From positions 1 through 35,481 of the forward strand of contig CABMCA010000078.1 in assembly GCA_902384525.1 (NCBI GenBank): a stretch of 35,481 nt of DNA, given 5' to 3'. Shown here one piece after another: positions 3,384 to 29,322 of the stretch. The translations under genes were made by a program, and so were the position numbers. Below the pieces are notes generated by a model. It was not told the origin of the DNA and made no database searches. It worked only from the letters and a program-made list of their open reading frames with translations. Source of the stretch: an uncultured archaeon (lineage in GTDB: Archaea; Halobacteriota; Methanosarcinia; Methanosarcinales; Methanoperedenaceae). Within the stretch, counting starts at the first letter, position 1, and each line of letters starts with the position of its first letter.

Positions 3384-4310
3384 TCACTTCATCCCATGTT
3401 TGGATAGATACTCCTCCACAGCCCGTTTTGATGAATACCATGCTTTCCCGGTTTTCACAGCATCCAGAATTCCCTGTCTTGCTCTCAGGCTCAGATACTC
3501 CTGGGAATAAGGAGTTCCTTTCGCAAGCTCTTTCAATGGCAGCAATTCATCAATCCCTCCATAGATTGAAAGATACATTGTCAGGCTCTCATCCATGGCT
3601 TTTGCAATGAAATTAGCAAAAGTGCCAAGGTTCCCGGCATCAGCAGCCCTTAAGAATTTGTAATATTTCCCCCTGTCTTCATTTTTCAATAAGATGGCCG
3701 GATATCCCCATGTGATCAAATACAGGTTTGTAAGTAAACGTGCCACTCTTCCGTTGCCATCAATGAATGGATGGATCTGGACAAATCTGTGATGAAGGTA
3801 TGCAGCAGTTTCAACCGGATGTGTTTTGCTTCCTGATTTTTTCTCAGTCAGCCCATCCATCAGCTTAACTATCTTTGACCAGTCCGGCGGAGTTTTTACC
3901 GCGCCAGTGATCCTGACATTTTTGCTTCGGTATTTGCCTGATTCTTCGAGTATGCCAGCAGTTACAACCTCGTGAATTTGCTGGATTGTAACATGGTCTA
4001 TTGGCTTTTTTTTCTTTGCAATATCTTCGATCAAATCAAATGCCCTTGCATTATTTGTTGCTTCAAGATGCTCTCGCAGGGATTTTCCTCCTATTGTTGT
4101 GCCTTCATCAAGAACAAGCTTTGTCTCAGAAAGAGTCAGGGTATTCCCTTCTATTGCATTGGAATGATAGGTATGAAGAAGGCGTATTTCATCATGCAAT
4201 CTTTTGACAGCATCTGTCGGAAGAGGGCGCAGCGAGTTGAGGCGGCGCATTTTTTCTTCGATGCGAGCCAGGAGTTTCTCATGGATCAATGAACTATCGG
4301 TATCGGACAT
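3384..4310 (-). CDS. Fic family protein (AMPylase-type), class II with N-terminal inhibitory helix
   Basis: A 308-residue Fic-domain protein. The catalytic motif HPFIDGNGRVAR (residues 180-191) is complete: the His that deprotonates the target hydroxyl, the acidic metal ligand and the phosphate-binding Arg. An inhibitory helix motif SNAIEG (residues 50-55) matches the (S/T)xxxE(G/N) signature that blocks ATP through its Glu in class II Fic proteins, so activity is probably autoinhibited. The C-terminal 45 residues (from GTPYSQEYLSLRARQG) look like a small winged-helix module, common in this Fic group. Such proteins transfer AMP to target proteins; the target here is unknown. The gene stands alone with its own promoter and repeated sites nearby. 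Confidence 0.9.
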   Translation of the reverse strand: MSDTDSSLIHEKLLARIEEKMRRLNSLRPLPTDAVKRLHDEIRLLHTYHSNAIEGNTLTLSETKLVLDEGTTIGGKSLREHLEATNNARAFDLIEDIAKKKKPIDHVTIQQIHEVVTAGILEESGKYRSKNVRITGAVKTPPDWSKIVKLMDGLTEKKSGSKTHPVETAAYLHHRFVQIHPFIDGNGRVARLLTNLYLITWGYPAILLKNEDRGKYYKFLRAADAGNLGTFANFIAKAMDESLTMYLSIYGGIDELLPLKELAKGTPYSQEYLSLRARQGILDAVKTGKAWYSSKRAVEEYLSKHGMK

Positions 4311-13930: not shown

Positions 13931-13954
13931 GTTAATATTTTTACTCTAATTAAC
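13931..13954. terminator. Possible bidirectional terminator between glycosylase and AIPR gene
   Basis: GTTAAT (13931-13936) and ATTAAC (13949-13954) are inverted around a T-rich stretch (ATTTTTACTC) in the gap between two convergent stop codons. The stem is short and overlaps the AIPR stop codon, so support is modest. Confidence 0.3.
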
Positions 13955-16357
13955 ATCAAATCCTGCGTTTACCAGAGTCTGCAAATATCTTGCCAGATTT
14001 TTTTCATCGAAAGAATTCATTTTTTTATTTTCATAAACAAATTTATATACATATAACCTCTGTTTTGGTGAAAGCACTCCTGTCTTTATATCCCAATCTA
14101 CCATCTTTCTCAGCAAGGAAGTTGTCATCTGTGTTGGAATGACCTCATCAGCATTTATTTGATTTTCATTGGTTAGCTCATTTTCTTCAGTTGAGTTATT
14201 TTCGCTGGTAATTTCATTTTTATTGATTATCACATTTACGTTGTTTGGATCATTTTCGTCAAAGAAATCAGGAGATTTGTGAACAATAATGTCAATTATT
14301 GTAATTGCGTCCTTTCGTTGAATTTCAGACAGTTGTTTTTTCATTTTAAGTGTAGATTGAATATTAATTGCCCTGTTTTTTAAAGTTGGAGTGAGTTCTT
14401 CGATAAAAACCCCCATTTTGTTTATTTCATTCCATTTGTTGAGAGGAATTGATTTAATTAATTCAAGCTCACTCTTCATTAAATTGTCTTCAATATCTGA
14501 ATCGGTCATATTTTTGCGCCGGGGAGAATCATCAGTTTCAAGATCATCTGACAGAATATTAAGGTTGATTCCGAAATCTTCTTTTATGATTTGATTCCAA
14601 CATTCTTCTTTTTTGGCCCATTCGCCATACAATGATCCGGGGGCAGTATGTATGATAAATCGTTCAACTGCAATCATAATTTCTTTAAGTATTGTTTTTA
14701 AAGCAGTACTTATTTCTTGATTTTTCCAGATTTTATATAAATCAAGCTTATAATCAAGTTTTAAACCAAGCCAGCCAATTGAATAAGGTACTGTTATATA
14801 ACGCATATCTCCCAAAGCATTTGGCTTGATACCATATATTTTTTCTGAACTCTTAAATAATATTGCATGTGCAATGAGATTCTCAAAAAAGATACTATCT
14901 GGCTTTTCGTCAAAGTTATATTTTAAGAAATAAGCATAGTTTTTTTCATTCCCCCTGACAATAATATGGGGTGCTATTACAAGTTTATTCCCTTTTGTGA
15001 ATATTTCTTCCTTGAGATTAAGATACTTTGCAAGATTTTCTTTTGTCAATAATTGATTTCTTGGGTTCATTAAGTCGAAAGCTTTTTTCTTTGAATTTGT
15101 AAAACCTTCCCGTAATCTTGCATTCTTATATTGACCTCTTGCTCTTTCAAAGAACCAGTGTGTTTGTTGAACCTGATCCTTTGAAGGCGGAGCCCAGATT
15201 GTTCTTGATAATTTTTCAAGTATTATGTAATATTCCCTGTTTGAACTCAGGTCAGCAGCCGATACTTTATTTTGTGTGTTTGCAAACTCTGCAATTTTTC
15301 CTATTATTGTTCCAAAATTATCTTTGTTTTTTATTATTGTAAGTTTTAATTGTACAAATATTTTTGAAGTATCAACGTTTTTATTTTGTTTCCATGTGTG
15401 ATAAATTGATGCTGTTGTCTGACCTCCATTAACAATTTGCAAATCCTTTACATAACCGATTCCTTTGCCTTTATTGTCAGGGAGATCAACTAATTCAATT
15501 TCCTCAGCAGTAGCAGCAATACCGTTATTATAAGCGAGGAACATATGGGGTTCATTCAATATAGTATCACGAATACCTCGGTTATATTTTCCTGTAAATT
15601 GCAAAAATGAACGAACGTTTTGTTCTAATAATCGCGCACCATATTGTCCATATATCTCAGCTAAAGCATTTCCGGAAATTATTCCTAAGTAAGATTGATA
15701 CTCATCATTAGCACCATCATTTACAATACAGGGCACTTGAAAACCATTTTCTGAAAAGTTAATTTCAATTGGAATTCTTTCCTTATCTGAAATATTGAAC
15801 ATGTAATTAATGTCAATTACCCTATAAAAAACAGAATATTTTTCAACAGTTTCAAACGTTTTTATATCTGATTTTATCTGACCATTTGTTATTAAAAATA
15901 TATTTATTATTGACAATGATTCTCTTATATCTTTAACCCTCGCTAAAGTATGTGCAAGGTCGAAAATTTGTGACGATTCTTCAATCTCATTGATATAATT
16001 TTTATTTATCGCATTTTTAAAAAATTTTAATAGCCTATCGTTCGCTTTTTCAGCTTCTGTTTTAGTCACAGATTGAATTTCGTCATTGTCAAAGTACAAT
16101 GTTATAAACAAGTCAAGTTTGTCATAGGTTTCATAAAGTGAATATCCATTTACTTTATGTATAACTCCTCTTTTACTGACCTTTTCATCATAACAAACTC
16201 TATAATTTTCTGTTTCTCCCGCCTCAGCTAATAATGAAAGAACTTTTTCAGTATATATTTGTTCTGGGGTAGTGCCTTCTTCATCTGATACAAGACCGGA
16301 TTTAATTTCCTCCTGCATGTCAGTATAAAATTTTTGCAGTTCATTATTTTCAAACAT
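13946..16357 (-). CDS. AIPR (abortive infection phage resistance) family protein
   Basis: An 803-residue protein carrying the AIPR domain at about residues 240-420. Its hallmarks are seen in order: FLQFTGKYNRGIRDTI, FLAYNNGIAATAEEIEL, then DLQIVNGGQTTASIYHTW. The N-terminal 200 residues include LDLFITLYF and a helical stretch and could be a degenerate nuclease-like module, but I cannot confirm catalytic residues. The C-terminal 200 residues are charged and low in complexity (a run of Asn/Glu/Thr near 700). AIPR proteins were named after a lactococcal abortive infection protein and recur in modification-linked MORC/Z1 operons. It is the last gene of the operon, five bases after the DUF4420 gene. 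Biochemical role unknown. Confidence 0.85.
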   Translation of the reverse strand: MFENNELQKFYTDMQEEIKSGLVSDEEGTTPEQIYTEKVLSLLAEAGETENYRVCYDEKVSKRGVIHKVNGYSLYETYDKLDLFITLYFDNDEIQSVTKTEAEKANDRLLKFFKNAINKNYINEIEESSQIFDLAHTLARVKDIRESLSIINIFLITNGQIKSDIKTFETVEKYSVFYRVIDINYMFNISDKERIPIEINFSENGFQVPCIVNDGANDEYQSYLGIISGNALAEIYGQYGARLLEQNVRSFLQFTGKYNRGIRDTILNEPHMFLAYNNGIAATAEEIELVDLPDNKGKGIGYVKDLQIVNGGQTTASIYHTWKQNKNVDTSKIFVQLKLTIIKNKDNFGTIIGKIAEFANTQNKVSAADLSSNREYYIILEKLSRTIWAPPSKDQVQQTHWFFERARGQYKNARLREGFTNSKKKAFDLMNPRNQLLTKENLAKYLNLKEEIFTKGNKLVIAPHIIVRGNEKNYAYFLKYNFDEKPDSIFFENLIAHAILFKSSEKIYGIKPNALGDMRYITVPYSIGWLGLKLDYKLDLYKIWKNQEISTALKTILKEIMIAVERFIIHTAPGSLYGEWAKKEECWNQIIKEDFGINLNILSDDLETDDSPRRKNMTDSDIEDNLMKSELELIKSIPLNKWNEINKMGVFIEELTPTLKNRAINIQSTLKMKKQLSEIQRKDAITIIDIIVHKSPDFFDENDPNNVNVIINKNEITSENNSTEENELTNENQINADEVIPTQMTTSLLRKMVDWDIKTGVLSPKQRLYVYKFVYENKKMNSFDEKNLARYLQTLVNAGFDVN

Positions 16358-16362
16358 TTGTA

Positions 16363-17361
16363 TCAGTTCTCGGAAATTTTATTGAAAAGATTTACTTCAT
16401 TAATTTTCCACGATTCAGATTCGGTTAGTATGATCGAATATTTTACATCTCCCACTCCTGCTGGGATTTGTTTTTCTGTAATTCTTGGAAAATCTCCAAT
16501 TACATAATAAATATTTTCTTGTCTAATAGTATATCCATTATCATTATAACAGTTTTTATGTATGTCAAAATAGCCATATTCCATTAATTTTAATTTGAAG
16601 AGGTTTGTGGCAAATGAATTTTCGGCTAGTAGATTGAAAACATTTTCAATTATGAAATTTAATGTTTCACCGAATCCCATTCGAACATCAAGAGATAGAT
16701 GATACAGGAAAATATTGGGTATTATTGAATCATCTAATTGTCTTTCACTGCTAATAAATATTTTTTGATGATTTTTACCATGTGTGGTTTTTACTTCAAT
16801 TGCCCAGTTTGAATATTGAAAATCTTGAATCGCATTTTCAGGACCCATCCAGGTATTTATACATTTAACGTAATCTGGAGAATTTGAAAGATATTTTCGA
16901 AGAAAATATAGTTCGCCAAACAAACCTCTCTGGGCTTCCTCGGAAAGGCCATGATGTCCAAGCTTCTCAAATAATGACTGCCATTTTGCAAGGCGTTCTA
17001 GAAGTTTGTCTATTAATATATTATCATCATTTATTTCATAAACTACAGATATTAAATCCTCACAAAGAGTTGAAAATATATCTTTATGTCGCGTATTTAG
17101 TAATAAAATTAGAAGAGCTTGTTTGTTTGAATTTTTTTCATCATTCGATACTTCAAGTTTTATGTCCTTGAATTTATTCAATTTACTTGTATCAAGGTTG
17201 AAAGAAGAACAAATAAGAAATGAAATACATCGTAATTTTTCAGGAGCTTTCAAAGCCACCAAAATATCAGGTTTTACTTTTGCAGAATAGCGTTTGTATA
17301 ACAATCCGGTTTGAAAAGATTCGTCCTTTTCAAGTTCTTCCCAAATTGTATCAATCTTCAT
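16363..17361 (-). CDS. DUF4420 PD-(D/E)XK family protein (putative nuclease)
   Basis: A protein of 332 residues from the chosen start. A conserved helix Glu (GLFGELYFLRKYL) precedes D...ExK: QDFQYSNWAIEVKTTHGK, which fits the PD-(D/E)XK nuclease core (E150, D180, E189, K191 in this numbering). This makes it the probable DNA-cutting component of the operon. The frame is open to 17388, but ATG 17361 is preferred: it overlaps the helicase stop codon (ATGAAGATTGA) and gives MKIDTIWEELEKD, whereas the longer form begins with a low-complexity Met/Lys run that merely shadows the helicase tail. Translation is therefore probably coupled to the helicase. Confidence 0.82.
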   Translation of the reverse strand: MKIDTIWEELEKDESFQTGLLYKRYSAKVKPDILVALKAPEKLRCISFLICSSFNLDTSKLNKFKDIKLEVSNDEKNSNKQALLILLLNTRHKDIFSTLCEDLISVVYEINDDNILIDKLLERLAKWQSLFEKLGHHGLSEEAQRGLFGELYFLRKYLSNSPDYVKCINTWMGPENAIQDFQYSNWAIEVKTTHGKNHQKIFISSERQLDDSIIPNIFLYHLSLDVRMGFGETLNFIIENVFNLLAENSFATNLFKLKLMEYGYFDIHKNCYNDNGYTIRQENIYYVIGDFPRITEKQIPAGVGDVKYSIILTESESWKINEVNLFNKISEN

Positions 17362-20134
17362 TTTCTTCATAATCTTCATAGTCATCAAAATTATCTTCTA
17401 TATCAAAGAGATCAAGCAATTCTTCATTCACTGCAAAGGATTCAAAAACGTTATAATTACTTTTTGGGAAACTGATAGCATATCCGACAAATGGATTACT
17501 ATTGTCTGAAAGTCCTGTTTCACTCTCTTTTGGGTCAAGTAAATAAATAATAAGCAAAGGCTTTTTTGGATGCCTGATTTCATTTCTAACGATTTCACCA
17601 TTGGGATAAGCAGGTTCTCTTCCTTTCTTTAGCTTTAGTCTATGTTTACGAGTTAATTCCATTGCATTTTCATATTCTTGCATTGTCAAATCTATGAATT
17701 CATCCTTTGGACTGATTATGTGGGATTTTCTTAAATAATAAACACTATCATTTGAATTGGGATGATATTGAGTTCTTTTCCATTGACCTATTTTATATGT
17801 TGTGCCGGATATTTGGAAGTCAGTGGTAGCTGAAGCTTTGCTTTTATGCATTAATGCAACTCTCCATTGAATTAATTCCTTATTTGGTAATTGGTTATTT
17901 ATGAAACGGATTAAATTTTGTGGTTCATAACCTTTCAAATTTTCCATTGACTGAATCCCGCCTAAAAAAGAAATTATATCATCTGCAGGAATGTCATACC
18001 ATAGATAGCCATTTTCTTTTAGCATAAAATTGCCGGGGAGACTGGATATAAATCGTTGAGTATTACTTAAATTATTTTTTATTACTTTAATGTCTTTTTT
18101 GAGTTCATATGATTCTACTAACCTACCAGACCATGAAATTTGAACTGTCACAGCAGAACGTAATTTATTGGATGCAGAAATTTGTAACACTCCGGGATGA
18201 GTTCGGACTTTTAATGCGTACTGTTCAGGCGTTGACCCTGCAACATCTGACATATAATCAAATTCCTCTCGTAATTCTTCTGACGCATGTGTTATATGGC
18301 AGTACCATTCATTTATTTCCCTGCTTGTAAACAATCGGCATAGATCGACATAACCAGCCCTGTAACCAAACCAGCGGCCCATTTGCATTAATGTGTCATA
18401 CATTCTAGAAGCTCGCAAATAATAACTTACAGATAGCCCTTCAAGAGTCATACCTCTGGAAAGTTTATTTCCCCCTACAACAATAACAGATAGCCCATTT
18501 TTATGTTCATAATAATCAAGAGCTTCACCTGAACCTCCATGAATTGCTTTCACTTCAATTCTTGATGCAGCATCATTTAAATGAAATAAAACATCTTCCC
18601 ACATATGTAGTTGAACTTGGGAGTCGATTATAGCCAATTTTGAGTTAATTATTTGATTAGAAACTGTCACATAAGATTTATAACCGTTTTCATCAATTTC
18701 AAATGTATTTCTGAAATCTTCAATAACGTCTGGATCATTCTGGTCAATTCCTCTTCTATAAAAATTGAATTGATTTTCAATCAGCTCGACAATATGATCA
18801 TGCCATCGAGGATAAAGAGACACATGAACAAGCATAGAATTATGCACTGTAGTTTGTCCTCTAAGTCTTCTTATTGCACAGGTTATTATAAAACAACGAA
18901 TAGAACGCTTTAAAGAATCTGGTAATTCTGATGGCAATTGATCATCTTTTTTATGACGATCTGGAACAAAAGTGTCATGATCATTAATACGATTTATTAA
19001 TGGCAGAACCGTATCAGATTCTTGATCGTCTTCAACAAAATTAAATCCAAATATTTTTTCAGGACCAATATAATTTGAAGGAGCTGGAATGTTAATTATG
19101 AAATCTCTTGGGAATAGATTATCATCTTCAAGAGGTATGAAAATATTGGCAAATGGGGTTGCAGTATATCCAACATACCCATTTTTGCCGAACAGCTTCA
19201 ATATTTGAGTTATCCATTCATTGATTGTACTTCTTTTATCAGGGTCATTAGAAATATTGATTGAAGCATTATCTGCCTCATCATCAATTAATAATAAAGA
19301 CTTATTTCTAATTATTCTACCAGAATCAGTATCCTCCGTTGCCTGTGCTGACAACCACTGATAAATTCTTCTTAATACATGTGGGTTCTTTTTAATTACA
19401 GCAATTATTGGTTCATTTGTTTCAAAATTTAAGCCAAGTGCATTTGCAGCACCTTGTGTAAAATCCCCCTTTTCGAGACTCGAAGTTAAAGAATGTGGTG
19501 CATAAGGTGTACGCCCTAATCGACCAACACCAATACGAATATTATTTTGATCGAAAGCTCTTGCATGTTGGGTATCAAATCCTAAAAATCCTTCGTCAAG
19601 CCTTAATTGAGTCTGGCTTCTAAGGTTGTTGTGAATACCAGCAAGAACAATTATTAATTTAAAACCAGAATCGGCTGCTTTACAAATTAAACCAGTGTAA
19701 TTTGAAGTTTTTCCTGATTGTACCTGGCCGACAACTAATCCTTTTTTATCTATTTGAATCTTTTTTGTTGGATCAAATAAACTGTCAAGAATTTTATCTG
19801 TTAACCTATCAAGTTTGTTAATCGTATCAGGAGCAAAATTTTTCTCATCTCCCAGATAATCCCTGTAACGACCCCAAAAACCATTTTGAAAATCAATCTG
19901 AGATCTTTTTTCATTAAGCCAGGGGTTTCTTCTTTCATCTTTTTCAATTATCTGGAAATCATCTTGTCTGATCCTATATAATTCTTCGATATGTCGGATT
20001 AAAGAAGCCTTATCAAGCCCACTATAAACCTCAATTTTAAGAATGGTTTCTACTGCCTGTACTACTTGAGTCGGGGAAATTGAACCTGATTGGGGTAAAA
20101 GTGTTCTTATTGTTCTAATTGCATTCTGATACAT
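17351..20134 (-). CDS. Z1-domain superfamily II helicase/ATPase
   Basis: A 927-residue helicase of the Z1 group. Walker A is GQVQSGKTS (136-144), Walker B LLIDDEAD (281-288), motif III GYTATPFANIF (322-332), and motif VI-like QMGRWFGYRAGYVDL near residue 615. The Z1 domain lies between the helicase halves and includes the conserved FIITCAIRRLRGQ and HNSMLVHVS. The tail is a run of Asp/Glu/Tyr. Z1 helicases were predicted to work with MORC-type ATPases in modification-dependent restriction (Iyer, Abhiman and Aravind). Its start overlaps the MORC gene stop by one base (TAATG). It probably translocates or remodels DNA to bring the nuclease to unmodified sites; that part is inference. Confidence 0.92.
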   Translation of the reverse strand: MYQNAIRTIRTLLPQSGSISPTQVVQAVETILKIEVYSGLDKASLIRHIEELYRIRQDDFQIIEKDERRNPWLNEKRSQIDFQNGFWGRYRDYLGDEKNFAPDTINKLDRLTDKILDSLFDPTKKIQIDKKGLVVGQVQSGKTSNYTGLICKAADSGFKLIIVLAGIHNNLRSQTQLRLDEGFLGFDTQHARAFDQNNIRIGVGRLGRTPYAPHSLTSSLEKGDFTQGAANALGLNFETNEPIIAVIKKNPHVLRRIYQWLSAQATEDTDSGRIIRNKSLLLIDDEADNASINISNDPDKRSTINEWITQILKLFGKNGYVGYTATPFANIFIPLEDDNLFPRDFIINIPAPSNYIGPEKIFGFNFVEDDQESDTVLPLINRINDHDTFVPDRHKKDDQLPSELPDSLKRSIRCFIITCAIRRLRGQTTVHNSMLVHVSLYPRWHDHIVELIENQFNFYRRGIDQNDPDVIEDFRNTFEIDENGYKSYVTVSNQIINSKLAIIDSQVQLHMWEDVLFHLNDAASRIEVKAIHGGSGEALDYYEHKNGLSVIVVGGNKLSRGMTLEGLSVSYYLRASRMYDTLMQMGRWFGYRAGYVDLCRLFTSREINEWYCHITHASEELREEFDYMSDVAGSTPEQYALKVRTHPGVLQISASNKLRSAVTVQISWSGRLVESYELKKDIKVIKNNLSNTQRFISSLPGNFMLKENGYLWYDIPADDIISFLGGIQSMENLKGYEPQNLIRFINNQLPNKELIQWRVALMHKSKASATTDFQISGTTYKIGQWKRTQYHPNSNDSVYYLRKSHIISPKDEFIDLTMQEYENAMELTRKHRLKLKKGREPAYPNGEIVRNEIRHPKKPLLIIYLLDPKESETGLSDNSNPFVGYAISFPKSNYNVFESFAVNEELLDLFDIEDNFDDYEDYEENED

Positions 20135-21624
20135 TATTCGATACCTAATTGTTCTATGTATTGTGGGTAAAAGTTAAAAGGCTCAATATTCAAAATAAAT
20201 AATTTAGCTTGCTCATCTGTTTTTCCATTCATTATTAGATTTTGATACATTGTTTTCATTGCATTTCTAACAGCATCATGATCTTTTCCTTCAAATGGCT
20301 GGCCATGTGGTAGAATATTCTCATTTTCTTGAAGTGTTATTAAAGGCACAGGAATAGTTTCTTCAATAAATTGTAAAACCTTCTCTATATCACCTTTTAA
20401 ACCATTTGATCTGGTGAATAGTTCAATTAATATCGGATGATTACGATTTATTTTATAAAACCTTTTTCCATGTCTTGCTCTTTCTTCCCAAAATGGAAAA
20501 TATTCATCTTTGGATAACTTTCGTTTTAATATTTTTCCTTTATGTCGATACACTTCTAAAGCTTGTGTTCTAACTTCTTTTGCAACTGATATTATTTGAT
20601 CTTTGTATTTCAAAGGAGGTCTAGCAATTGATTTTTTAATGTCTATTTGCCAATCCTCATCAACATTGTTTGGCAGGTCTATTCGAATTCGGCATAAATC
20701 GTAATGCACCTCATTTTTAAACATACCAAGCCAGTCTCCTGCAACAAGTAAACGTCTTTTGCGATAAACATAAAATCCCTGATGCGCAGTCCAGCTACAT
20801 TTTGGGCCTTTTCCATAATTGTATTTTTCAGATGATAGTTTTGATCTATGGGGCAGAACAAATCCTTTAATAATTATTTGTTCGTCTTGAAATTTGACTT
20901 CTGGTTTTGGTTGCAATCCATCACATTCTATCATGAAAGGATCCCATGGTTCTATTTTTCTGCCCTTGAAAAATATATTTATACCATTCTCAATAAACCT
21001 GTGAAACACCATGGAAAGATGTGATTTTACGATTTCCATAGTCTCTAAGAACTTATTTTTTGAATCATCGCTATCTTCTTTAGTATCTTTTGTTATCCTA
21101 TCTAGATCCCACCACATTACACATGTTCCAGAGGTCAATTGCTCGACTTTTTCAGTAAAATTACTTTCTTTGGGGCAATATTTTATCAGACTCCATGAGT
21201 GTAATTTGTTAACGAAATCCAGATCCCAACTCCAGAAACAAATTTTACAATCAATCCGTTTTGAAATTACTGTAAACTTTCTGGTTTGAGAAAATGAAGC
21301 TGTTTTTAATCCTAAACCAAATCTTCCCAAATCATCGCTATCTCTTATGTCAAGAGGATTTTTGCATCCAGGTCGCATGGCATGAATTAACTGTTCATTG
21401 TTCATTCCATTGCCATCATCCAGAATTGATAAAACCGTATTTGGCCCTTCCCAAATATAATCTATCCAGATATTTTTTGCATCAGCAGTTATTGAATTGT
21501 CTATAATATCTGCAATTGCAGTTTCTATTGAATAACCTATAGCTCGAAAAGTTTCAATCATCGAGCTTGCATCTGGTTCTGCCAGTGCAGTTTCAAAGTT
21601 TGAATAGTCAAATTCATTATTCAT
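20134..21624 (-). CDS. MORC/MutL-like GHKL ATPase
   Basis: A 496-residue ATPase of the GHKL (gyrase, Hsp90, histidine kinase, MutL) superfamily. The ATP-site motifs are complete: ADIIDNS (38-44, with the catalytic Glu at 35), DDGNGM (69-74) and GRFGLGLKTAS (100-110). An S5-type second domain with basic residues (RIRIDLPNNVDEDWQIDIKK) follows. Prokaryotic relatives in restriction-like operons are the proposed ancestors of eukaryotic MORC proteins. ATP-driven dimerisation on DNA would make it a sensor or clamp. Second gene of the operon: eight bases after the methyltransferase, one-base overlap with the Z1 gene. Confidence 0.92.
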   Translation of the reverse strand: MNNEFDYSNFETALAEPDASSMIETFRAIGYSIETAIADIIDNSITADAKNIWIDYIWEGPNTVLSILDDGNGMNNEQLIHAMRPGCKNPLDIRDSDDLGRFGLGLKTASFSQTRKFTVISKRIDCKICFWSWDLDFVNKLHSWSLIKYCPKESNFTEKVEQLTSGTCVMWWDLDRITKDTKEDSDDSKNKFLETMEIVKSHLSMVFHRFIENGINIFFKGRKIEPWDPFMIECDGLQPKPEVKFQDEQIIIKGFVLPHRSKLSSEKYNYGKGPKCSWTAHQGFYVYRKRRLLVAGDWLGMFKNEVHYDLCRIRIDLPNNVDEDWQIDIKKSIARPPLKYKDQIISVAKEVRTQALEVYRHKGKILKRKLSKDEYFPFWEERARHGKRFYKINRNHPILIELFTRSNGLKGDIEKVLQFIEETIPVPLITLQENENILPHGQPFEGKDHDAVRNAMKTMYQNLIMNGKTDEQAKLFILNIEPFNFYPQYIEQLGIE

Positions 21625-21632
21625 ATTCGTAT

Positions 21633-22865
21633 TTATTTAATATTTGTCAGAAGTTTTTTTATTGATTCTGCAATACTTTTTGCCATCAATGGAGGTACAG
21701 CATTACCTATCTGTCGAAATGCAGCACTTCTACCACCTTCAAAAAAGTAATCATCAGGAAATGACTGAATTCTTGCAGCTTCACGAACAGACAAAGATCG
21801 AATCTGCTTAAAATCAGGATAAATATAATAATGTCCATCTTTAGCTATATGAGCAACCACAGTATGAGAACACCCATCCGGATCTACAACTTTAAACCTA
21901 TCTAAAAAAGATTTCTGGTTATTATGTGTTTTTAGATGGTCTGGTAAATCTGAATACTTTAATCTTTCACCATTTTTCAACCATTTTTGTATTGCAATTT
22001 CATAAATTGAAAGGTCTCTTTCATTATGTGGTCTGGTGACATGCTGGGTAACAAAATCCACTCCATTCCGGATTTCAAATGTTTCCAGATAATTTGTTAA
22101 CCCAGTTTTATATCCCATTATTTTTTCCCCGCCTCCTGGTTTTAAATCAGGTAAATCAGCAAATAAATCAGATTTTATTTTCCATTTATTAACTGTTTTT
22201 TCAAGTTCAGGAAAATCAAATTTATTATTACCTCTTTTGCCGATAACGATGACTCGTCTTCTTTTTTGCAACACGCCATATTCCATAGCATCTAATATTT
22301 TCCAGGAAATACTATATCCAACTTCTTCGCTTTCAAATAGAGTCTTCATTTGTTCAAAATAATTACTGGCAGTAAGCAAACCAGTTACATTTTCAAATAC
22401 AAAATATTTTGGCTTATATTTTTTTAGAAAGTCAGCATAATATTTAAATAAGTAATTCCTGGTGTCATTTTTCATTCTGTTGGTGTCTCTCGAACGACCA
22501 ACAAGTGAATAAGCCTGGCAGGGAGGACCACCGATTATTAAATCAATTTTCTCTTTTTTATTCAAATCATCTATTTTCTCAAAAATAGAATCAATTGTTG
22601 AACTATCAATTTTCTCGCAAATAACAGTATCAAGTTGTTCCCGGGGTATTTTCGCATATAATTTTTCTTGTGTGATTTTTTCCTGCAAATAATTGTAATA
22701 AATATCAAGTTGTTTATTTGCTTTTAAGTTATGATAAGCTATTCTTGTTTTTAAAGTATTACACGCATGATCATCCATTTCAATATGTGCAATGGGTGTA
22801 AATCCAGAACAAACAAATCCTTCTGAAAGTCCACCAGCACCAGCAAATAAATCAATATAATTCAT
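21633..22865 (-). CDS. C5-cytosine DNA methyltransferase
   Basis: A 410-residue m5C methyltransferase with the ten-motif order intact: SAM-binding DLFAGAGGLSEGF (motif I, residues 5-17), catalytic GGPPCQAYSLVGRSRD (motif IV, Cys116), FENV (motif VI), QKRRRVIVIGKR (motif VIII, 200-211), and the C-terminal QIGNAVPPLMAKSIAE (motifs IX-X). The variable region between VIII and IX (about 220-330) sets target specificity, which I cannot predict. An insert of about 40 residues lies between motifs III and IV. It is the first gene of the operon and should mark host DNA for the downstream MORC, Z1, DUF4420 and AIPR proteins. Confidence 0.95.
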   Translation of the reverse strand: MNYIDLFAGAGGLSEGFVCSGFTPIAHIEMDDHACNTLKTRIAYHNLKANKQLDIYYNYLQEKITQEKLYAKIPREQLDTVICEKIDSSTIDSIFEKIDDLNKKEKIDLIIGGPPCQAYSLVGRSRDTNRMKNDTRNYLFKYYADFLKKYKPKYFVFENVTGLLTASNYFEQMKTLFESEEVGYSISWKILDAMEYGVLQKRRRVIVIGKRGNNKFDFPELEKTVNKWKIKSDLFADLPDLKPGGGEKIMGYKTGLTNYLETFEIRNGVDFVTQHVTRPHNERDLSIYEIAIQKWLKNGERLKYSDLPDHLKTHNNQKSFLDRFKVVDPDGCSHTVVAHIAKDGHYYIYPDFKQIRSLSVREAARIQSFPDDYFFEGGRSAAFRQIGNAVPPLMAKSIAESIKKLLTNIK

Positions 22866-26998: not shown

Positions 26999-27481
26999 AT
27001 GAGAATCCCTGAAGAAATACGAAATATCCTGTACGGTAATTATTTCGGTTATGTATGCACAAGCGATAAAAATGATCAGCCGCATCTGACCCCGGTTTTT
27101 TTCATATACGATGAGAATTCACAGAAACTTTTTTTCATCACAAATGATCGATCAAAAAAGGTCAAGAACCTGTCTGAAAATCCCAATATCAGTATTACAA
27201 TCGATATCCGTGATCCTGTAAATCCTTTCAATAATGAGGGGGTTATGGCCCAGGGCACAGCTACTATTACAGATAAAGCACCAATATATTTCCTGTCCGA
27301 AGAGACGCTGCAATTATACTATGACATCTATCAGGAATTTAAAAGCAAATACCAGAAAGTAATAGAGAATAAGCCCCTTGGCGAGAACGATGTGATCGTA
27401 CAGATAAATGTTGAGAAAATGGTGTACTGGAAAGGCCCACATTTCAAATCATTGAAATTCAAAAAAGACTTTTCAGGATAA
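26999..27481 (+). CDS. Pyridoxamine 5'-phosphate oxidase-like flavin-binding protein
   Basis: A 160-residue split-barrel protein: LYGNYFGYVCTSDKNDQPHL at the N-terminus, KLFFITNDRSKKVKNLSENP in the middle, and QINVEKMVYWKGPHFKS at the end. It aligns segment by segment with the C-terminal domain of the preceding gene, so the two are paralogues. ATG 26999 is chosen because it lies two bases after the upstream stop. Members bind FMN or F420 and act as reductases or oxidases on small molecules. Its last nine bases overlap the convergent FlaD/E-like gene. Confidence 0.82.
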   Translation: MRIPEEIRNILYGNYFGYVCTSDKNDQPHLTPVFFIYDENSQKLFFITNDRSKKVKNLSENPNISITIDIRDPVNPFNNEGVMAQGTATITDKAPIYFLSEETLQLYYDIYQEFKSKYQKVIENKPLGENDVIVQINVEKMVYWKGPHFKSLKFKKDFSG

Positions 27482-28093
27482 TGAGCCTGATTCTTTTGAC
27501 CTCTTAGGGTTCTTGCCGCTTCGGCCTGCTTTTTTCAACTTTATGTTTTGATCCATGATATCCATAAATATCTTTTTTCTCATCATTTCTTTCTGGTTTT
27601 TAAGAAGAGTTTTTTCAAGCTCCCTTATCCTTTCCTTTAGCCCCACAATCTCTGCATACTTTTCTTCCAGTTCTTGCTCAAGGTTATTGATAGTGACTTC
27701 GCGGCGGTGTATACTGATCTCCATCTTCTTTTTTTCAGCCGGGTGAATATGTTCTGATGGTTTGATCTGGATTTTTTTTTCAATATCAGGTCTCGCTTTT
27801 CCAGAAAAAGGAACATTTAGAAGAGAATCCTCTATATCCTCCCCTTTTAGCTTCTCAATAAAAAGCCTTGATATTCGCTGTTCCTCGGCAGAAAGAGTCC
27901 ATGAAGCCCCTTTGTAGCGTTTCTCCAGACTTGCGATATCAAGTAGTTTTTCAGCCGCTGATCCACTGATCCAGCCTATGCTCTGGTAGTAATTAAATAG
28001 CTTCGGGAGATTATTATGGCCAACCCTTGCAAGAAGGAATTTAAGCCATTTTCGCTGGGTTTCAATTGTTGTGCCAGTAAGTTTATCCAGCAT
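27473..28093 (-). CDS. Coiled-coil protein with N-terminal FlaD/FlaE-like domain
   Basis: A 206-residue protein. Residues 14-50 (RKWLKFLLARVGHNNLPKLF then YYQSIGWIS) match the archaellum accessory FlaD/FlaE domain (pattern WLxFLxxRVGxxNLxxxxxYYxxIGWIS). Residues 60-95 are a helical linker, and 128-185 a coiled coil with regular heptads (EQELEEKYAEIVGLKERI). The tail (186-206) is strongly basic, then Ser-rich. FlaD/E proteins link the archaellum motor to chemotaxis and polar scaffolds; no other archaellum gene is here. Its ATG directly follows the stop codon of the MamK-like actin gene (TAG-ATG), so the two should be made together. I infer a filament adaptor. Confidence 0.75.
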   Translation of the reverse strand: MLDKLTGTTIETQRKWLKFLLARVGHNNLPKLFNYYQSIGWISGSAAEKLLDIASLEKRYKGASWTLSAEEQRISRLFIEKLKGEDIEDSLLNVPFSGKARPDIEKKIQIKPSEHIHPAEKKKMEISIHRREVTINNLEQELEEKYAEIVGLKERIRELEKTLLKNQKEMMRKKIFMDIMDQNIKLKKAGRSGKNPKRSKESGSLS

Positions 28094-29149
28094 CTATGCA
28101 GTTTGCCAGAATTCAGGCGGCATATCCTGTGCCAGTTTCAGGGCACCATTTGCGCCGCTAAAAACGGGGTCTGTATCTTTGAAGACCTTTCCGCCATCTA
28201 TTAATTCGAGTTCCTTTCCCAGAACGACATCAATGTTCCTGATCAGGCTGCCTCCGCCTGCCAGCCAGATATTATTGCGCAGATATTCCTGGAAGTCAGG
28301 ATCATATGTGGATATCAGTTTGGATATGCCGGACATTATATCCGGAATAATGGATTCACACGCATTTCTTATCTCTTTTGTAATTGATAATTTAAGTATG
28401 GAAGAATCAACAGGTATATCAACAACAATTTCTTCTTCAGGCTCACCCACGAATGAACTGTGTTCTTTCCATTTTTTTGCCACCTCATTTGTTACCCTGA
28501 CATTGGCATATTCTTCGGAGATCAGCCTTACTAATTCAGCATCAATATAATCACCTGCTTTGTTGCTGCTTATCTGGTCATCAGGTTCCGGAAGCGTACC
28601 ATGTACCCTGCATATATCCGTGGTCCCTGCCCCTATATCCACGACCAGGGTATGTTCCAGCTCTCCCAGGTTATATGCGACACAAAAAGGTTCACTTGCA
28701 ACCATTACCCCATCAAAGAAACCTTTTGCCATTTCCGTAATGATCTTTTTATTAAGTACACTGGCCTGGGATGGAACTCCTATGATGGCATACTTTTTTA
28801 TATCGCGGTTAGCATCCACAAGCCCCATTATATATTGAAGCAGACCTTTGGCAGCCTCAAGGTCCTCTCTCTGGTTCTTTAATAACCCTGACTCGATAGG
28901 TTTGAACATGTTAAGCGCAACCCTGTGTTTTAATGCCTCATCACCATACAGGCGCTCTTTCTTCAGGAATTTTGATGCTACTGCATCTCTTGGGATACCC
29001 ACAATGCTGAGAATGCTCTTTTTCTTTCCTTCACTTGTCGATATTGCAGTATGGTTCGTTCCAAGATCAATTCCTATATATAATGTCTTATTTTCTTTTA
29101 CACGGGCTGCACCCGCCTTTTCGATTAGTACTTTTTTCTTATTTGCCAA
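28094..29149 (-). CDS. Actin-family ATPase, MamK-like
   Basis: A 351-residue actin/Hsp70-fold protein. Phosphate-1 loop IGIDLGTNHTAIST (25-38); the catalytic-type Glu153 in ASEPFCVAY; phosphate-2 loop VVDIGAGTTDIC (169-180, Asp171); adenosine loop WLAGGGSLIRNI (295-306). The closest family I can recall is the magnetosome actin MamK: both have SEPF and DIGAGTTDIC with the two acidic residues 18 apart (E143/D161 in MamK), the SFVGEP and PDI segments, and an ending like PPEFWQ. It should form ATP-dependent filaments in the cytoplasm. Start is TTG 29149 after GAGGG (29156-29160). The next gene encodes a FlaD/E-like coiled-coil protein. Confidence 0.82.
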   Translation of the reverse strand: MANKKKVLIEKAGAARVKENKTLYIGIDLGTNHTAISTSEGKKKSILSIVGIPRDAVASKFLKKERLYGDEALKHRVALNMFKPIESGLLKNQREDLEAAKGLLQYIMGLVDANRDIKKYAIIGVPSQASVLNKKIITEMAKGFFDGVMVASEPFCVAYNLGELEHTLVVDIGAGTTDICRVHGTLPEPDDQISSNKAGDYIDAELVRLISEEYANVRVTNEVAKKWKEHSSFVGEPEEEIVVDIPVDSSILKLSITKEIRNACESIIPDIMSGISKLISTYDPDFQEYLRNNIWLAGGGSLIRNIDVVLGKELELIDGGKVFKDTDPVFSGANGALKLAQDMPPEFWQTA

Positions 29150-29155
29150 AAGTAT

Positions 29156-29204
29156 CCCTCATAATGATTATGTACATGATACAAATGCATTACTTAAATA
29201 TATA
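29156..29204 (-). promoter_or_regulatory. Promoter of the actin-FlaD/E operon
   Basis: ACTATATATTTAAG (about 29194-29207 read leftward) is a strong TATA box; transcription would begin near 29173, leaving a leader of about 24 bases that contains the GAGGG site for TTG 29149. Confidence 0.5.
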
Positions 29205-29322
29205 GTTTACCTAACATTTATCACATTTATCTAAAAAAATGCATCTGATTTTATTTTTTTTTTCAGTTTATGCATAATATAGGGGACTATCGGAAAAGCG
29301 GCAAAGTGGAAAAATTCAAAAC

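Follow-up and report, generated by a model that had tools for sequence, protein, structure and literature searches.

Does the actin-like gene of a Methanoperedenaceae contig belong to a cytoskeletal system of its own, and does the gene directly behind it encode an adaptor of the actin filament? The question arises from a 35,481-nucleotide stretch of DNA from an uncultured archaeon (contig CABMCA010000078.1, hereafter called the window), in which an original prediction, made from the sequence alone, had paired a MamK-like actin with a coiled-coil protein carrying a domain related to the archaellum proteins FlaD and FlaE (FlaD/E) and had proposed a new archaeal cytoskeletal system.

The two-gene locus and its actin

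Both open reading frames and their immediate stop–start junction were found on the minus strand as originally described (Table 1). The pair looks bicistronic, because a TATA-like box, the likely promoter of the operon, and a GAGGG motif precede the actin gene, and a convergent gene overlaps the 3′ end of the partner gene by nine bases. The abutting stop and start codons likely couple translation of the two genes; among the 19 Methanoperedens genomes with the pair, the junction was TAR-ATG with a gap of 0 in 17, and the gap was 1 and 3 in the remaining two. The two genes are in frame, and an actin–partner fusion by read-through of the TAG codon was ruled out, since TAA is the stop codon at several orthologous junctions and the two genes of one pair are in different frames. 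The nearest named contigs, from Candidatus Methanoperedens strains BLZ2 and METP1, encode actins with 94% and 93% identity, respectively, which assigns the window to Candidatus Methanoperedens. As predicted, no magnetosome or other archaellum protein was found among the window proteins scanned. Elsewhere in the window, the minus strand encodes an MZA-type anti-phage defence system (13946-22865), in which homologues of MzaE, MzaD, MzaC, and MzaB are lined up with a DNA cytosine methyltransferase, and a member of the Fic family (3384-4310) whose relatives include mobile mystery protein B and SoFic.

Table 1. Coordinates of the actin–partner locus in the window, and of FlaD/E-domain genes at salactin loci on other contigs
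Feature	Position	Strand	Evidence
Actin-like protein, MamK branch, 351 aa, TTG start	28094..29149	-	NCBIfam, Pfam, and PDB matches
Partner protein, 206 aa, ATG start: FlaD/E-like domain, linker, long helix, short basic tail	27473..28093	-	Pfam Arch_fla_DE; adjacency in 19 genomes
Actin motifs SEPF ... DIGAGTTDIC (nucleotide/catalytic; Glu153 to Asp171, spacing 18)	28610..28696	-	Sequence; alignment to MamK
FlaD/E-like domain of partner, residues 15-84	27842..28051	-	Pfam; helices in AF2 model (moderate confidence)
C-terminal helix of partner, residues 118-191, with conserved IHR module	27521..27742	-	HMM matches; pLDDT mostly >90
Lysine/arginine-rich tail of partner, varying among orthologs	27476..27535	-	Ortholog comparison
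Abutting codons TAG ATG (actin stop, partner start)	28091..28096	-	Sequence; ortholog junctions
Shine-Dalgarno-like GAGGG, 6 bases before actin TTG start	29156..29160	-	Read from sequence
Archaeal TATA-like box CTATATATTTAAG, ~50 bases upstream of actin start	29193..29205	-	Read from sequence
FlaD/E-domain proteins directly upstream of salactin	L149 3367-3852; L151 5209-5733; L150 5316-6161; nine further loci

Among the NCBIfam models, MamK (NF040964) ranked first for the window actin with 388.2 bits, below its curated cut-off of 400, followed by BeeR (NF053558) with 198 bits against a cut-off of 530, and no match was obtained to salactin (NF053533; cut-off 400 bits). The MreB/Mrl models TIGR00904 (62 bits) and PRK13927 (66.9 bits) remained under their subfamily cut-offs of 365.75 and 293, while the broad Pfam family MreB_Mbl included the protein at 80 bits; the Pfam scores for salactin (PF25229; 24.4 bits, cut-off 27.1) and Hsp70 (PF00012; 12.6 bits, cut-off 20.6) were under the cut-offs. 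MamK was also the best solved structure by a wide margin in a PDB search (E 4e-75), including when the family profile was used, with PDB 5ljw matching at 256 bits. Alignment to 5ljw reproduced the predicted catalytic Glu–Asp spacing and showed corresponding C-terminal endings in the window actin and MamK (MPPEFW / LPPQYW).

Relatives of the actin in other genera scored between 151 and 381 bits with the NCBIfam MamK model. In a tree with one MamK and one BeeR sequence, the actins of the order Methanosarcinales formed one clade against both (support 99). In another tree, very long branches separated them from the salactins; with salactin, MreB, and BeeR included together, the branches were too long and the root order was left uninterpreted. 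Profile scores and trees agreed in placing the window actin outside Hsp70/DnaK and generic MreB, and on this comparison it is a MamK-branch actin, not an Hsp70, MreB, or salactin. Its nearest family is MamK, whose mode of action it probably shares, although it is no MamK by that family's own cut-off; the original likeness holds for the top NCBIfam and PDB match and fails as a family assignment.

The partner and its co-inheritance with the actin

Residues 15-84 of the partner matched Pfam Arch_fla_DE (PF04659) at 49.7 bits, above the gathering cut-off of 21, in agreement with the predicted FlaD/E-like domain, and the core W..FL..G...L..Y...WI was common to the partner and ArlD/E-like proteins in the alignment. 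The "long coiled coil" was predicted in the AF2 model as a single long C-terminal helix of 74 residues (pLDDT mostly >90). The model as a whole, computed from an alignment of five sequences, had a mean pLDDT of 68 and consisted of short N-terminal helices and this long helix; Foldseek comparison of the model with the PDB yielded no match with E below 1. A read-through model of actin and partner, likewise from a five-sequence alignment, reached a pLDDT of 40 and was useless as a model of the complex. The predicted basic tail is real (+6 in 20 residues), but short and variable; in the partner sequences compared, no part is less conserved than this tail, while conservation extends most widely in the C-terminal coiled-coil module.

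Nineteen of 31 Methanoperedens genomes carried the actin and partner genes adjacent to each other, and the other 12 carried neither. Both genes were under purifying selection (dN/dS 0.09-0.21). This both-or-neither pattern in 31 congeneric genomes, together with purifying selection, made chance adjacency unlikely. The flanking genes change between genomes, with the pair as the constant unit. We found no carriage by viruses in IMG/VR, and a plasmid search returned only two distant MreB-like matches.

The expected conservation of the pair in related genomes extended to other groups of the order. The actin was present in 54 of 186 genomes of the order and absent from the further genomes of the class that were examined; most of the order is without the pair. 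In two groups, f3 and f5-g27, the gene downstream of the actin encodes an N-terminal FlaD/E domain followed by a coiled coil, with 630-1940 aa in complete copies; one partner tested per group gave FlaD/E scores of 38.8 bits (f3) and 30.5 bits (f5-g27). In genus f5-g23, the downstream gene encodes a coiled coil of 450-607 aa with an N-terminal FTPNIYRKP-like motif, and the two partners tested showed no FlaD/E match. From their place in the order, the occurrence of MAGs versus complete genomes, and multihaem cytochromes, our guesses are that f3 corresponds to ANME-2a/b, f5-g27 to ANME-3, and f5-g23 to Methanolobus. Across lineages, the coiled coil of the partners ranged from 74 to >1800 residues. 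Horizontal spread between the lineages with a FlaD/E-type partner was considered and found unsupported, as the two f5 groups grouped together (support 82); the AU test for a clade of FlaD/E-type lineages gave p 0.23.

Two further features of f5-g23 were observed. Some of its actins (L076, L082, and L083) no longer have the catalytic Glu in SEPF, a hint that ATP hydrolysis is changed or missing in them, and at four loci (L074, L076, L078, and L080) the pair adjoins polyphosphate-kinase-like and Ppx-like genes.

Over their final 75 residues, the complete partners had in common the pattern IHR....I..L...LE and an asparagine near the end. An HMM of this C-terminal module, built without Methanoperedens sequences, matched all 19 Methanoperedens partners at 28-50 bits, whereas the decoys, either shuffled partner sequences or fragments of other coiled coils, reached 10 bits at best. 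The IHR module was the only module found in all complete partners.

FlaD/E-domain neighbours of salactin

The study of salactin reported poor synteny and no conserved neighbourhood from which a function could be read (PMC10746226). Salactin grows and shrinks out of the cell poles, and cells deleted for it partition their DNA abnormally when phosphate is low (PMC10746226). For the archaellum proteins, FlaD-GFP is polar (PMC6509185), and archaeal proteins connecting chemotaxis with the motor are binding partners of FlaCE and FlaD (PMC2666748).

Salactin loci were collected from across the phylum. With a FlaD/E profile whose training set combined the order's partners with ArlD/E-like proteins and contained no haloarchaeal sequences, we found a FlaD/E-domain reading frame directly upstream of salactin, on the same strand, at 12 of 14 haloarchaeal salactin loci. 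The three proteins tested against the Pfam FlaD/E model confirmed the domain with 68-106 bits. The 14 loci are related, several coming from one genus, and do not represent 14 independent events; the pairing occurs in at least six genera in three families, which their salactins and composition suggest to be haloarchaeal. Volactin loci served as a control, and none of 30 had a FlaD/E neighbour. The FlaD/E neighbours of salactin are without the IHR module, and those read carry an NPRDYD-like N-terminal motif. Our search of open-licence PMC papers found no paper joining salactin or Methanoperedens with a FlaD/E pairing.

Other actin loci showed different neighbours. Salactins that we call Archaeoglobi-like, a name inferred by us (L160 5064-6508, L161 5119-6432, L162, L163, L164, and L166), are followed by a coiled-coil protein of 168-245 aa ending in SPR(I/L)L and, also downstream, a MinD/ParA-like ATPase; the three genes may form a polarity or segregation operon. 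At the five volactin loci inspected (L178, L184, L195, L199, and L203), the upstream gene encodes a protein of 250-294 aa that looks membrane-bound and is possibly a membrane anchor.

Proposed mechanism, alternatives, and relation to known systems

The idea of a MamK-like filament with a dedicated adaptor is sound as a candidate system and is supported by these data. We propose that the actin filament is anchored or tethered by a coiled-coil adaptor that binds actin with one end and docks to a polar scaffold with the other, thereby positioning cargo, a mechanism that we would accept about as readily as doubt. The operon would supply an ATP-dependent actin-like filament, as suggested by the actin family and the intact nucleotide motifs, together with its own elongated adaptor, in which two functional ends would be joined by a coiled coil differing greatly in length between lineages. 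The C-terminal IHR module would most likely bind the filament or filament end, since it alone occurs in all complete partners, while the N-terminal FlaD/E-like domain would most likely dock on a polar or membrane-bound scaffold, as proposed from its homology to ArlD/ArlE, switch proteins at the cell pole. The pair would then anchor or nucleate filaments at the cell pole and position cargo, and the coiled coil of the order's partners could act as a tether of variable reach; arithmetically, 1800 residues of helix correspond to ~270 nm.

The opposite division of labour, with the FlaD/E domain itself binding actin, deserves consideration because this domain is what both pairings have in common; it is disfavoured by genus f5-g23, which is without FlaD/E. 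That this genus keeps the actin and a coiled coil also means that docking cannot depend on FlaD/E everywhere. Moreover, the FlaD/E neighbours of salactin are without the IHR module and upstream of the actin, and the two pairings may therefore differ in how they work. The low-confidence AF2 models, the lack of a Foldseek relative in the PDB, and the absence of the pair from 12 Methanoperedens genomes and from most of the order also count against the adaptor model. A broader reading, possible but on the doubtful side, is that FlaD/E domains serve archaeal actins generally as polar adaptors, because two distantly related actin families, salactin and the MamK-branch actin, each have a FlaD/E-domain partner. 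Archaea would then possess a dedicated polar actin-anchoring apparatus sharing a docking domain with the archaellum, with tethers >250 nm in some methane-cycling lineages.

The effect of salactin deletion on DNA partitioning (PMC10746226) and the basic tail of the partner invite a further explanation, namely chromosome or plasmid partitioning in a ParM- or salactin-like manner, in which DNA is pushed or pulled by the filament, with the partner as DNA-binding adaptor. We consider this unlikely: the tail varies most among the partner's parts and was not seen in partners from other genera, a Pfam scan found no DNA-binding domain in the partner, and the genes flanking the pair vary.

Placement of the archaellum or of chemosensory arrays, in which the FlaD/E-like domain joins ArlD/E, or mimics them, within the motor ring while the motility machinery is positioned by the filament, would account for the homology of the domain to ArlD/E. 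It is also consistent with three f5-g23 loci (L075, L077, and L079), at which the actin pair adjoins CheW-like, CheR-like, and receptor-like genes, and with a second FlaD/E-domain protein of the window genome (386 aa; L204 7092-8252), which has CheW-like and receptor-like genes close by. The pair is nevertheless missing from several genomes that encode an ArlD/E-like protein, Methanoperedens among them, no other archaellum gene lies near it in the window, and salactin deletion left the motility of H. salinarum unchanged (PMC10746226), which makes this explanation improbable.

Scarcely probable, in our judgement, is a filament for cell shape or internal architecture, comparable to the roles of MamK in magnetosome chains and of volactin in cell shape; the coiled coil would serve as a spacer, either along membranes or from filament to filament, and FlaD/E would be an oligomerization module only. 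MamK is the closest solved actin and the wide range of coiled-coil lengths is as expected of a spacer, but the window holds no magnetosome gene, and the recurrence of FlaD/E beside another actin family suggests a role beyond generic oligomerization. That the two genes are unrelated chance neighbours has a negligible probability, given their co-occurrence in all 19 genomes of the genus that have either gene, the retention of the pair in other families while the flanks change, and the parallel pairing at salactin loci.

The actin–partner pairing appears to be a genuine cytoskeletal module of archaea that had not been described before. The original claim of novelty stands for the pair, but archaeal actins near MamK, such as salactin, have already been described, and the module is not peculiar to the window archaeon. 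Hardly any partners of archaeal actins are known, and in the salactin study the gene neighbours gave no clue to a function; a conserved, co-inherited FlaD/E partner now provides a named candidate for salactin's polar nucleator or anchor in a genetically tractable organism. In the methane-oxidizing Methanoperedens, an actin system is accompanied by a candidate adaptor of its own, and how archaea build cell polarity becomes directly testable.

Among the known systems, MamK (PDB 5ljw and 5jyg) resembles the window actin in full-length alignment, equal catalytic spacing, and C-terminal ending, whereas the window actin is archaeal, falls under the family cut-off, has no magnetosome genes nearby, and has its own FlaD/E coiled-coil partner. 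BeeR (PDB 8r2n) is the next nearest actin family, yet its score is far below the cut-off. Volactin (PF25216) is likewise an archaeal actin-like protein of the same phylum, but differs in having an apparently membrane-bound upstream protein at the loci inspected and no FlaD/E neighbour. ArlD/ArlE (FlaD/FlaE) are homologous to the N-terminal domain of the partner; ArlD/E-like proteins of ~360-480 aa, however, carry the domain near the C-terminus, whereas the partner has it at the N-terminus with the IHR coiled coil behind it, is paired with an actin, and lies outside any archaellum cluster. Salactin, an archaeal actin of the same phylum, is very distant in sequence and forms a separate long branch, and its FlaD/E gene lies upstream of the actin; nevertheless, it is, like the window actin, genetically linked to a FlaD/E-domain protein.
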